The position numbers were made by a program, and so were the translations under genes. From Spirochaetia bacterium (GTDB lineage: Bacteria > Spirochaetota > Spirochaetia > B11-G9), in NCBI GenBank assembly GCA_029932585.1, contig JAOZPU010000009.1, forward strand, positions 4,092 through 39,451: a stretch of 35,360 nucleotides of DNA. The letters are read 5' to 3'. Shown piece after piece: positions 26,477 through 34,723 of this stretch; position 1 is the first letter of the stretch, and each line of letters opens with the position of its first letter. Under the pieces are notes generated by a model. It was given only the letters and a program-made list of their open reading frames with translations, was not told the DNA's origin and searched no databases.

Positions 26477-27750
26477 GTGAACATTAGTAACTTTTTTAAA
26501 CCTATAATCGATACAATTGAGAGAGCTTTATTCATTGGCGAAAAGGGTCCGGTAAAACTTGCAAAGTTTATTGTAAGACTTCTTAGAGAATTCAGACATG
26601 ATAAATGCCTTATTCGTGCTTCAAGCCTCTCTTATACAAGTCTACTGGCTCTAATACCTCTTACTGCATTAAGTTTCTCTCTCTTCACTGCATTCGATGC
26701 TTTTGAAGGAATAAGAGAAAACGTACAAAAATCTCTGGTAAATATTCTTATACCAACACGTCAGGATGAAATACTTATATTTATTGAGAAGTTTCTTGAT
26801 AATTCCAAAACTATGGGTATTATTGGTTTACTTCTTTTTGCAGTTACTTCTGTTATGCTTCTGGATAGAATCAGTGAAAGTTTTAATTCAATATGGGGAA
26901 GTAAAAATGAGAAAAATTTTATTGGTAAATTTACTTCATATTTTTCTGTAATAGTTTTTGGTACTCTATTTATTGGAACAAGTTTTACATTAACAACTCC
27001 ACTAAGAAGATTTTTAGACAGTGTTCCGGAAATTCAGTTTATTCTAAGATGGCTTGTAGTACTATTCCCTTCAATTTTTATTTTTTTACTTTTATTCTGA
27101 TGATTTCTGCAATTCCAGAGGGAAAAGTAAATTTGAAAAGCAGTTTTATTGGAGCTCTTGCTGGAACAGTAATGTGGGACATAGCAAGAAGAGGATTCAC
27201 TGAGGGTACTGGTTATGTAATAAGAATGTCAAAACTATATGGATCCATAGCTGTTATACCAATCTTTCTTTTTTGGCTATATTTAATATGGATAATAATT
27301 TTTCTTTCTCTTGAGGTAAGTTATGTCCATCAGCACAAAACAGGATGGGATAAAGGCGATTCAATTAGAAAACAGCAACCATCAGTAATTATCGAGACGG
27401 GTTTGACAGTATTTCATCTAATTGCCAATAATTTTGATACAGGTAAAGAATATTTTTCTGTATCTGAAATTTCATTAACCCTGTCTATATCCGAAGAACT
27501 TATAGAAGAAATAGTTGAAAATTTCATAAAAGCCGACCTTATATACAAAACTGACGAATCGGTCAGAAAACTACTCCCAGCAAGAAGTCTTAATAAAATA
27601 TTGCTGAAAGATGTAATGAAAGCCATTCTTGGTAACCAGGGGCAACTTGAATCAAACATAACTGTGCATGAAACCTTAAAAAGTTTTTTTTCTGCAGGCT
27701 ATAAAAACATGGGAGTAATTACAGTTGAAGATTTCCTCAAAGAATCATAA
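26477..27750 (+). CDS. YihY/BrkB-family membrane protein, split into two frames near 27082
   Basis: An inner-membrane protein of the YihY/BrkB family (once called RNase BN), whose function is unsettled. The first frame runs from a GTG at 26477 to TGA at 27098-27100 and contains the family N-terminus (RASSLSYTSLLALIPLTALSF, LLLFAVTSVMLLDRISESFNSIWG). The second, in the -1 frame, continues through ISAIPEGKV, SSFIGALAGTVMWDIARRGF and the YGSIAVIPIFLFWLYLIWIIIFL helix to 27750. Joining at the T7 run gives about 424 residues and one uninterrupted membrane helix. The C-terminal 130 residues look like a winged-helix domain, as in longer family members. The break may be a mutation, a sequencing error or programmed frameshifting. 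There is no clear ribosome binding site at the GTG. Confidence 0.8.
27082..27088 (+). other. Candidate -1 slippery heptamer in yihY
   Basis: TTTTTTA read as T TTT TTA in the upstream frame (codons ATT TTT TTA at 27080-27088) is a canonical X XXY YYZ heptamer. Slippage by one base back continues as ACT TTT ATT CTG ATG into the second half of the gene. Only a weak TCTG...CAGA stem is seen downstream. Confidence 0.4.
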
Positions 27751-31866: not shown

Positions 31867-31892
31867 AAAATCCTGCCGTTTGACAGGATTTT
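31867..31892 (-). terminator. Intrinsic terminator after the small zinc-ribbon gene
   Basis: AAAATCCTG (31867-31875) and CAGGATTTT (31884-31892) pair around an eight-base loop. Read on the minus strand the hairpin is followed by a run of T, so it closes the zinc-ribbon gene upstream of the M48 gene. Confidence 0.85.
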
Positions 31893-31918: not shown

Positions 31919-32113
31919 TTATAGAGCAGCTACTGCTTCCTGTTTCTTTCCATGGGCAATAGCCTTATTACATTCTTTACAAACCTTAATTTTCTTTTCA
32001 TTTATTTCGTTTTCATAAAGAACTTTAACACCAGTTCGTTTACAAACAGGACATGTTCCTCTGCCGGCCTTAACAAGCTCCCGAATTCCTACACCTCTAT
32101 GTGCTTTAGACAT
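31919..32113 (-). CDS. Small zinc-ribbon protein, conserved but unknown
   Basis: A 64-residue basic protein: MSKAHRGVGIRELVKAGRG, then Cys-Pro-x-Cys in TCPVCKRTGVKVLYE, then KVCKECNKAIAHGKK. The two CxxC pairs should form a four-cysteine zinc ribbon, and the Lys/Arg content suggests RNA or ribosome binding. The start is set at the ATG at 32113, which has GGAGG five bases upstream; an in-frame TTG four codons earlier lies inside that ribosome binding site and is unlikely. I believe similar short proteins are common in spirochaetes but cannot name a function. It is closed by its own terminator. Confidence 0.75.
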   Translation of the reverse strand: MSKAHRGVGIRELVKAGRGTCPVCKRTGVKVLYENEINEKKIKVCKECNKAIAHGKKQEAVAAL

Positions 32114-32232: not shown

Positions 32233-32982
32233 CTATTCAGCATTACACTGACATGCCCCAGGTTTATCAAAAAGTACCTCCAGGGCTATTTCTGTTAATT
32301 TATTTTTTGTTTCTTCTATCTCTTTGTCACTGATAAATTCAAGATCATCTTTTATTCCTGCAGCCCAGTTTATTGAATATGAAACAGCAGCAAGATGTAT
32401 TCCGGCTTCCCTGGCCAGAGCAGTTTCTGTAGCACCTGTCATTCCAACATAATCGGCTCCAAACATTTTATACATTTTTATTTCTGCAGGCGTTTCAAAT
32501 CTGGGTCCATTTGTGCAAATATAGGTACCGGAATCTGCTAAAGGGAACCCTCTCTTTTTTGCAGCTGTAAGTATTTTTAATCGAAGATCAGCACAATAGG
32601 GTTCATCCATAGGCGTATGTTTAAGTCCTGACTTTCCCCCTTCGTAGAAAGTATTTATTCTTCCCTGGGTAACATCAATAAACTGGGAAACTAATCCAAA
32701 CCTGCCTGGAGGTACAATATCGGTTATGGATCCAACTGCATATATGGCAAAAACCCGCTCTATGCCCAAAAGAGTTAAAGCTCTAATATTTGCTCTGTAA
32801 TTAATTTTGTGCGGAGGAATAGTATGATCCAACCCATGTCTTGAAATAAAATATAGATCTTTCCATTTTCCAGTGCCTTTTTTAACTGTTACCAATCCAT
32901 ATTCAGTTTCAACATTCTCATCAACTGTGCTTATTCCCTCTATACTGTAAACTCCTGTTCCTCCAAGAATAGCAGCTTTCAT
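32233..32982 (-). CDS. Purine nucleoside phosphorylase family, 5'-methylthioadenosine/methylthioinosine phosphorylase
   Basis: This family splits methylthioadenosine (or methylthioinosine, 5'-deoxyadenosine) with phosphate into a base and a 5-modified ribose-1-phosphate. The 249-residue protein shows the phosphate loop GGTGVY, RHGLDHTIPPHKINYRANI, YAVGSI, the family signature YICTNGPRFETPAEIKMY, and GMTGATETALARE. The base-recognition loop reads SINWAAG, with Asn205 where adenine-specific MTA phosphorylases have Asp (in TDYD). Asn is associated with 6-oxopurine substrates, so methylthioinosine may be used after deamination. The ATG overlaps the mtnA-like stop by one base (TAATG). It is the last gene of the aldolase-isomerase-phosphorylase operon. 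Confidence 0.88.
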   Translation of the reverse strand: MKAAILGGTGVYSIEGISTVDENVETEYGLVTVKKGTGKWKDLYFISRHGLDHTIPPHKINYRANIRALTLLGIERVFAIYAVGSITDIVPPGRFGLVSQFIDVTQGRINTFYEGGKSGLKHTPMDEPYCADLRLKILTAAKKRGFPLADSGTYICTNGPRFETPAEIKMYKMFGADYVGMTGATETALAREAGIHLAAVSYSINWAAGIKDDLEFISDKEIEETKNKLTEIALEVLFDKPGACQCNAE

Positions 32983-34031
32983 TATTCCTTACCCCAGTTT
33001 TTGTATACATTCCCAAGCCCATAAGCAGAAATTAATCCCTTAGGAGTAATTATACCGGATATAAGATGAGGCGGAACAATATCAAAAGCAGGATAGTATG
33101 CTTTCATATCCGGTCTTGTAGTGGGAACACCTCTTATCATTTTAACCTCTTCAGGATCACGTTCCTCAATAATAATACTTTCTCTCCCCTTCCTGGTCAT
33201 ATCGGGGTCGATAGCCAATGGGAAATAAGGAATACCATGGTAATTTGCAGTAACAGCATTTTGAAAAGTGCCTATTTTATTTGCGACCCAGCCATCACTG
33301 GTTACTATATCGACTGCTGTCATATACTTTTGAATTTTTCCCTGGGACATAACATGAGCACACATACTATCTGTAATTAAAGTTACATCTGCTCCAATTT
33401 CCATTAAACATGGAGCTGTTAACCTTGCTCCCTGAAGATACGGCCTGGTTTCAGGAGAATAAACCTTTATATTCTTCCCCTGTTCCAGGGCCAGAGCAAT
33501 TGTAAGGATAAAAGAAGTTTCTGCAAAACACATTGTTAGAACACCATCACCATCTTCAATTAACCCAGAACCAATTTCGGCCATAGTAAAATAGCTCTTT
33601 TCATACTCTTTTTGGAAATTATCAATATAGCCCTGAACGGCAGACTCCAAAGATTTACCAATTTCAATCTCTTTACATATAATATCTACAAGATCTTCAA
33701 GTATTCTTGCCATAGTGGTATTAGTAGGCCTGGTAATTTGCAACCGCTCTTTTGCTTTAATAAAAATATCAGCAGAGGGTTTTATCTCTCCACGGTCTGC
33801 TTTTCCTGCAAGAAACAGCATGCCTACCATTGCTGCCCTCATAGGACCTCCACCCTGGGTAACCATTGTTTCAATAGCAACCGCCACCTCTTCAATGGAA
33901 TGACATGCTACAAATTCTTTTTTAAAAGGATAGGCGCGTCTGTCCCCAATTAGAATAGTATTATTTTCAATTCTTGCAATATTTATGCTTTTTAATATGA
34001 ATGGAAGATATGAATCTATTTTTCGTTCCAA
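32982..34031 (-). CDS. mtnA: MtnA-like 5-modified ribose-1-phosphate isomerase
   Basis: MtnA isomerises 5-methylthioribose-1-phosphate to the ribulose form. The 349-residue protein has QGGGPMRAAMVG, RPTNTTMAR, the catalytic Cys168 in LTMCFAE, ETRPYLQGARLTA, LITDSMCAHVM, and VANKIGTFQNAV. The catalytic Asp falls on Asp241 (AVDIV) when aligned backward from NKIGT. It departs from textbook MtnA at several places (CFAET instead of CNAG, DGWVANK instead of NGDVANK), so it belongs to a divergent branch that may also take 5-deoxyribose-1-phosphate. The start is TTG with CAGGAG seven bases upstream. It sits between the FucA-like aldolase and the phosphorylase genes, which defines the pathway. Confidence 0.9.
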   Translation of the reverse strand: MERKIDSYLPFILKSINIARIENNTILIGDRRAYPFKKEFVACHSIEEVAVAIETMVTQGGGPMRAAMVGMLFLAGKADRGEIKPSADIFIKAKERLQITRPTNTTMARILEDLVDIICKEIEIGKSLESAVQGYIDNFQKEYEKSYFTMAEIGSGLIEDGDGVLTMCFAETSFILTIALALEQGKNIKVYSPETRPYLQGARLTAPCLMEIGADVTLITDSMCAHVMSQGKIQKYMTAVDIVTSDGWVANKIGTFQNAVTANYHGIPYFPLAIDPDMTRKGRESIIIEERDPEEVKMIRGVPTTRPDMKAYYPAFDIVPPHLISGIITPKGLISAYGLGNVYKNWGKE

Positions 34032-34084
34032 TTACTTACTCCTGTTAGTATACTAAAACAATAATTTCCGGTTAAGAGAGAATA

Positions 34085-34723
34085 TTAGTGATATCCTACA
34101 AACTGCCTGTTCAAATTCTCAACTTCATCATTCGAAAGAATTTGTATTTCCTGACCTGAAGATAAGCAAGTCATATATAATCCTGAAATATATTCCATAT
34201 GACTTGCAATGGAATAAGCCTGATCAATTGTCCTGGCTCCACTGACAAGACCATGATTTCCCAATAAGACAGCTCTTCGTCCAACCATACCTTCAAGAGC
34301 ATTTTTGGCAAGTTCTTTAGTACCAAAAGTAGCATATGGAGCACATCTAAGATTCCCTCCTGCACTTGCTATCATATAATGAATTGCAGGCAGTCCCTTA
34401 TTAAGACATGATAATGCAGAAGCATTAAATGAATGTGTATGAACAACAGCATCGATATCTTCACGATTTGCATAATAAATTGTATGAAGTTTTAACTCAC
34501 TTGAAGGTTTGCCTTTGCCATCTACTACTTTTTCATCAAGATCAACAACTATAATATCTTCAGGGCCCATATCCATATAGTCTTTACTACCCGGCGTTAT
34601 GGCTAACAGTTTTTCTTTTCTATTAAAAACAGAAATATTTCCACCTGTACCAACAACCAGGCCGCTGGTAAGCATCAATTGGGCATATTTAACAACTTCT
34701 CTTCTTTCAAATTCAAGCAGCAT
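34085..34723 (-). CDS. Class II aldolase, FucA-like (DHAP-shunt aldolase Ald2/DrdA type)
   Basis: A 212-residue class II aldolase of the L-fuculose-phosphate aldolase type: GTGGNISV, ITPGSKDY, PSSELKLH with catalytic Glu76, zinc ligands His95 and His97 (VVHTHS) and His157 (LGNHGL), and the FucA-like block PAIHYMIASAGGN followed by CAPYATFGT. It should split a 5-modified ribulose-1-phosphate into DHAP and an aldehyde. The related MtnB dehydratase is of similar size but lacks this FucA block. In front of mtnA and a phosphorylase, the likely products are DHAP plus methylthioacetaldehyde or acetaldehyde. It has AGGAG before the ATG and a fair promoter. A true fuculose or rhamnulose role is less likely because no sugar genes accompany it. 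Confidence 0.88.
   Translation of the reverse strand: MLLEFERREVVKYAQLMLTSGLVVGTGGNISVFNRKEKLLAITPGSKDYMDMGPEDIIVVDLDEKVVDGKGKPSSELKLHTIYYANREDIDAVVHTHSFNASALSCLNKGLPAIHYMIASAGGNLRCAPYATFGTKELAKNALEGMVGRRAVLLGNHGLVSGARTIDQAYSIASHMEYISGLYMTCLSSGQEIQILSNDEVENLNRQFVGYH

Follow-up and report, generated by a model that had tools for sequence, protein, structure and literature searches.

Positions 32233–34723 of the window (i.e., the whole stretch of 35,360 nucleotides analyzed here) harbor a real three-gene operon, whose products are a class II aldolase, a divergent isomerase and a nucleoside phosphorylase. On balance, we favor the view that this operon encodes an anaerobic, deaminating form of the DHAP shunt; its isomerase comes from a little-recognized branch of the methionine-salvage enzyme family. 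The DHAP shunt of the original prediction kept its pathway logic, but neither the isomerase nor the phosphorylase passed the respective MtnA and MTAP tests, so that the operon would represent a variant and not a plain copy of that route.

Operon Organization and Conservation

The three genes are co-directional on the minus strand and fill the region exactly. The aldolase gene (34085..34723, 212 aa) comes first and is separated by 53 bases (34032..34084, minus strand; initially given as 54), with a Shine-Dalgarno-like AGGAG ahead of a TTG start codon, from the isomerase gene (32982..34031, 349 aa), which in turn overlaps the phosphorylase gene (32233..32982, 249 aa) by one base in a TAATG junction. 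Apart from the length of the gap, the tight operon initially described was confirmed. The products were assigned to PF00596, PF01008 and PF01048, respectively, and these families were backed by NCBIfam models and solved structures. Because the gene order is kept in same-genus genomes (with identities of 66–90% for the aldolase, 79–92% for the isomerase and 76–86% for the phosphorylase) and the isomerase-phosphorylase pair is kept across several phyla, the arrangement is far beyond chance.

An ORF of 64 aa located 3' of the operon (31919–32113, minus strand), with a zinc-ribbon-like CPVC...CKEC pattern, gave no match in Pfam or NCBIfam. It lies ahead of a hairpin with a T tract that resembles an intrinsic terminator (31867..31892, minus strand); matches to the terminator pattern, this hairpin among them, were not more numerous than in shuffles. 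Elsewhere in the window, two ORFs (207 and 233 aa; 26477–27750, plus strand) that overlap but are read in different frames look like one frameshifted membrane protein, that is, a pseudogene or an assembly error. One genome of the same genus (G001, contig C26; L054/L078) carries an additional copy of the operon that seems to be decaying, with the aldolase present only as a fragment and the isomerase broken by a TAG as well as a change of frame.

The Aldolase Belongs to the DrdA/FucA Radiation

The aldolase scored 272 bits against PRK06833 (cut-off 264), and among solved structures it was closest to DrdA of B. thuringiensis (6btd/6btg; E 2.7e-69), followed by the FucA proteins of S. pneumoniae (E 7.6e-57) and E. 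coli (E 4.7e-39). In line with the FucA-like aldolase proposed at the outset, it shares 52% identity with B. thuringiensis DrdA and retains all catalytic residues; in the alignment, the catalytic Glu76, the metal-binding His95, His97 and His157, and the phosphate-binding residues were conserved. Within a 49-row tree, the aldolase and its genus relatives formed a 100/100 clade of five rows inside the DrdA/FucA radiation, neither tightly grouped with DrdA nor split from S. pneumoniae FucA. To judge from its sequence, the enzyme is catalytically competent.

A Divergent Branch of MtnA-Family Isomerases

The isomerase had been predicted to be MtnA-like. Its AlphaFold model (pLDDT 94) had MtnA structures as best matches, and its scores were below the cut-off of the MtnA equivalog (TIGR00512; 196.6 vs. 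279 bits) and far below that of ribose-1,5-bisphosphate isomerase (TIGR00511; 133.8 vs. 314.1 bits). When aligned with MtnA, the RGAPAIG motif is replaced by QGGGPMR (giving the motif VTQGGGP), and CNAGxxAT by CFAETSF, the latter with a 7-residue deletion.

The 1-phosphate of ribose-1,5-bisphosphate isomerase substrates is held by two Arg residues, the first of which (Arg22) belongs to the RGA motif, together with one Gln and one Lys; the residues at Cys+2 to Cys+4 help to hold the 5-phosphate (PMC5789824). According to the alignment, the RGA Arg, which binds the 1-phosphate in MtnA as well as in ribose-1,5-bisphosphate isomerase, is replaced by Gln59 in the window isomerase (33855..33857, minus strand), a loss that could mean an altered C1 chemistry. 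The second Arg (Arg101), Gln200, Asn251 and Lys252 were invariant in a 28-row alignment, as were the retained catalytic residues Cys168 (33528..33530, minus strand) and Asp241 (33309..33311, minus strand). The Cys+3 position, occupied by Glu171 (33519..33521, minus strand), was acidic throughout the clade, with Glu in all 80 sampled isomerases and Asp in that of L060. Most of the known 1-phosphate and sugar ligands are retained in this alignment, and the segment on the 5' side is rebuilt; this pattern suggests a functional isomerase of aldose-1-phosphates whose C5 side has been remodeled.

A 43-row tree placed the window-type isomerases in a separate 100/100 clade, on a long branch away from canonical MtnA. 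On the canonical side were the MtnA proteins of T. maritima and B. subtilis, the genome's own MtnA from contig C94, and the Bacilli isomerases adjoining DrdA, which are canonical MtnA and grouped at 100/100. An assignment as DrdI was rejected on this tree, in which the DrdA-adjacent Bacilli isomerases stood in for B. thuringiensis DrdI and the window clade lies apart from them. Similarly, a profile search of Spirochaetota gave window-type matches above about 300 bits and canonical ones below about 242 bits, with a clear gap between them.

A sister subclade with VTQSAGP and CFGET or CFGDT (L149, L183, L202, L060) adjoins an MtnK-like kinase and an aldolase and, in Enterococcus, lies near sugar PTS genes and a glycerate kinase; it probably serves another sugar pathway. 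Isomerase ORFs of ~470 aa were observed in Robiginitomaculum and Kordiimonadales/Emcibacteraceae (L101, L103, L113 and similar loci), and Pfam recognized an N-terminal rhodanese domain fused to the alphaproteobacterial isomerase of L101.

The Phosphorylase Carries an MTIP-like Asn

In this phosphorylase superfamily, an Asn at the base-recognition position is established to favor 6-oxopurines. The window phosphorylase has such a residue (Asn205; 32368..32370, minus strand), as do 6-oxopurine enzymes such as PNP and P. aeruginosa MTIP, whereas S. tokodaii MTAP has Asp, and the column was invariant in a ten-sequence alignment. The MTIP model was its best NCBIfam match and a near miss (PRK09136; 213.9 vs. 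223 bits), and its scores were below the cut-offs for MTAP (TIGR01694; 206.3 vs. 274.85 bits) and for inosine/guanosine PNP (TIGR01700; 77.1 vs. 293.35 bits). Only MTAP/MTIP structures were found among the 50 matches listed for its structure model. The MTA-type phosphorylase initially proposed does not agree with this profile; because the base-recognition residues are MTIP-like and not MTAP-like, MTA or 5'-deoxyadenosine would need to be deaminated first. A candidate acid for binding the 5'-OH in the phosphorylase was dropped, as it was not conserved.

Genome and Genus Background

The mtnB/C/D/E/K genes had been stated to be missing. This was correct at the operon and, with regard to MtnD (the dioxygenase, ARD), for all six genomes of the genus (G000–G005), in line with the predicted lack of oxygen-dependent methionine salvage, but not for MtnK: contig C94 of the same genome encodes a true MtnK (476 bits, cut-off 275) together with the canonical MtnA (408.4 bits, cut-off 279). 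In this locus (L013; G000 C94, 1–5879), mtnA-mtnK is accompanied by a ribose-type ABC transporter, with no aldolase alongside, and likewise in relatives, where a periplasmic binding protein and a SorC-like regulator come first. It looks like a locus that takes up and activates methylthioribose or 5-deoxyribose. Like the window operon, it employs an MtnA-family isomerase for sugar-1-phosphates, but differs in its canonical MtnA, its sugar kinase and importer, and in that no aldolase was seen beside them; the aldolase of the window operon might also serve this kinase and isomerase.

The same genome also encodes a Pfs-type MTA/SAH nucleosidase (C144; 113 bits, cut-off 73.8), an MTA/SAH-deaminase-like protein (C67), a PNP adjoining a nucleoside-type ABC importer (C181) and the phosphopentomutase DeoB. 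If its nucleosidase, MtnK and canonical MtnA handle MTA and 5'-deoxyadenosine via the sugar, the operon pair would be redundant for these compounds. No SAM decarboxylase of the prokaryotic type was found in the six genus genomes; ordinary spermidine synthesis therefore seems to be missing, which weakens a polyamine origin of MTA and, with it, the suggestion that the operon disposes of polyamine by-products.

Related Loci across Phyla

A scan of named genomes yielded 80 isomerase loci from Spirochaetota, Chloroflexota, Pseudomonadota, Actinomycetota, Bacillota and others, many of them from related genomes and hence not independent. The phosphorylase gene followed that of the isomerase in 69 of the 78 usable loci, usually closely or with an overlap of 1 or 4 bases. 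A deaminase of one of three unrelated types was present nearby in 46/80 loci, namely an amidohydrolase resembling MTA/SAH deaminases (19 loci), a CDA-fold deaminase (19 loci, always immediately upstream) or an adenosine-deaminase-like protein (8 loci). Furthermore, class II aldolases of two subfamilies were located near the pair in 24 loci (RhaD-like in 15, DrdA-like in 9), a methionine-gamma-lyase-like PLP enzyme in 16 (and as a fragment in L074, of the same genus) and an RpiR-type regulator in 11. One logic recurs across these loci with unrelated deaminases and aldolases.

An ECF importer that includes a QueT-family component was found near the pair in 19–20 loci; in Chloroflexota and Spirochaetota, this substrate component (L085, 7953–8786, and homologues) is linked to the pair, and it may carry the pathway substrate. 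Queuosine salvage, at which the QueT-family component hinted, was discarded, as no queuosine gene was present among the neighbors examined. As a clue to the substrate, riboswitches of the SAM, SAH, purine and preQ1 classes were looked for at the end of the window and in 35 related loci, but none was detected, and our search of the open literature found nothing on such an ECF transporter or on a ribose-1-phosphate isomerase of the window kind.

Proposed Pathway and Alternatives

Known DHAP shunts (Rhodospirillum MtnP-MtnA-Ald2, E. coli Pfs-MtnK-MtnA-Ald2 and B. thuringiensis DrdK-DrdI-DrdA) resemble the window operon in combining, within a single operon, a phosphorylase or kinase with an MtnA-family isomerase and a class II aldolase. 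They are oxygen-free and yield DHAP and an aldehyde, products that are also predicted for the window operon. In contrast to them, the window isomerase comes from a separate clade without RGAPAIG and CNAGxxAT, the phosphorylase is of the 6-oxopurine type, and relatives of the operon often have deaminase neighbors. With P. aeruginosa, in which an MTA deaminase and a 5'-methylthioinosine phosphorylase (PA3170, PA3004) operate, the window shares the phosphorylase Asn, and the family of this deaminase adjoins the isomerase-phosphorylase pair in Chloroflexota; the window phosphorylase differs in scoring under the MTIP cut-off and in being coupled to an isomerase and an aldolase.

The phosphorylase-isomerase-aldolase logic leading to DHAP and an aldehyde, as originally predicted, is well supported at the sequence level. 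With regard to substrate, direction, step order and products, we infer the following. The substrate would be a 6-oxopurine nucleoside in which the 5' position of the ribose is modified or is the distinguishing feature; 5'-deoxyinosine and 5'-methylthioinosine, supplied by an MTA/5'-deoxyadenosine/SAH deaminase encoded elsewhere, are the most likely candidates. Phosphorolysis by the MTIP-like enzyme would release hypoxanthine and leave a derivative of ribose-1-phosphate. The divergent isomerase would then convert this aldose-1-phosphate to its ketose-1-phosphate, which the DrdA/FucA-like aldolase would cleave into DHAP and a two-carbon aldehyde, the whole route proceeding without ATP and without oxygen. 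The linkage to the phosphorylase (69/78), the recurrence of different class II aldolases near the pair, the frequency of deaminases (46/80), the invariant Asn, the MTAP/MTIP matches of the phosphorylase model, the retained residues and ligands of the isomerase, the deaminase-like gene on C67 and the ARD-less genus argue for this deaminating variant; against it count the possible redundancy with the nucleosidase, MtnK and canonical MtnA of the genome, the lack of a deaminase adjacent to the window operon, the loss of the RGA Arg in the isomerase and the scores of the phosphorylase, which are under both the MTIP and the MTAP cut-offs.

A plain DHAP shunt, in which MTA and 5'-deoxyadenosine are directly phosphorolyzed, isomerized and aldol-cleaved, would account for a gene content identical to that of the MtnP-type shunt (PMC10986504, PMC6079011), for an aldolase whose nearest PDB relative is DrdA, and for the absence of the methionine-regenerating dioxygenase. 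Nevertheless, we regard it as rather unlikely in view of the Asn in place of the MTAP Asp, the score of the phosphorylase under the MTAP cut-off, the position of the isomerase outside the MtnA/DrdI clade, and the separate presence of MtnK and MtnA in the genome.

The haloarchaeal guanosine pathway also employs a nucleoside phosphorylase, an IF-2B-family isomerase and a FucA-like aldolase to form DHAP, but its route passes through ribose-1,5-bisphosphate and involves both a kinase and a phosphatase, its last step being catalyzed by a ribulose-1-phosphate aldolase (PMC9700705); the window isomerase, by comparison, scores far under the ribose-1,5-bisphosphate isomerase cut-off. A one-phosphate counterpart, in which unmodified inosine or guanosine is converted via ribose-1-phosphate and ribulose-1-phosphate into DHAP and glycolaldehyde, would fit the conserved acid at Cys+3 of the isomerase, beside the 5-phosphate site of ribose-1,5-bisphosphate isomerase, which could bind a 5-OH. 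It would also fit two related loci: an operon in L059 that joins the isomerase and a class II aldolase to a phosphorylase that qualifies as a genuine inosine/guanosine enzyme (331 bits, cut-off 293), and L077, which holds canonical MtnA, a window-type isomerase and a PNP-like protein together. This option is unlikely for the window operon, whose phosphorylase is of the MTAP/MTIP type by sequence and fold, not a PNP, and lacks conservation of its presumed 5'-position acid, in a genome that already has DeoB and a PNP with a nucleoside importer.

S-inosylhomocysteine (deaminated SAH) is a very unlikely substrate: cleavage of the resulting homocysteine-bearing aldehyde by the methionine-gamma-lyase-like PLP enzyme would agree with this Cys/Met-metabolism enzyme near the pair, the nearby amidohydrolases of the MTA/SAH deaminase kind, the rhodanese fusion and a conserved acid near C5 that could bind the amino group, but the 5' pocket of known MTAP/MTIP enzymes is understood to be closed, the genome has its own MTA/SAH nucleosidase for SAH, and the PLP enzyme could equally assimilate methanethiol.

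Beyond the deaminating variant proposed for the window operon, we tentatively consider, as a possibility somewhat against the balance, that the whole clade of MtnA paralogues, widespread and so far unassigned, comprises aldose-1-phosphate isomerases with a new C5 specificity (e.g., for S-ribosylhomocysteine-1-phosphate or ribose-1-phosphate). With their dedicated phosphorylase, they would define an undescribed route, present in several bacterial phyla, in which purine nucleosides are deaminated, phosphorolyzed, isomerized and cleaved to yield DHAP.

Implications

If the proposed reading is true, genomes with a window-type isomerase are probably annotated as containing MtnA or the DHAP shunt, though the function would be related but different, and the VTQxxGP / C[FW]x[ED] signature would provide a simple motif test separating these isomerases from MtnA. 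Likewise, anaerobic Spirochaetota and Chloroflexota, as well as marine Proteobacteria, would possess a kinase-free and oxygen-free route by which deaminated SAM by-products or nucleosides enter central carbon metabolism.
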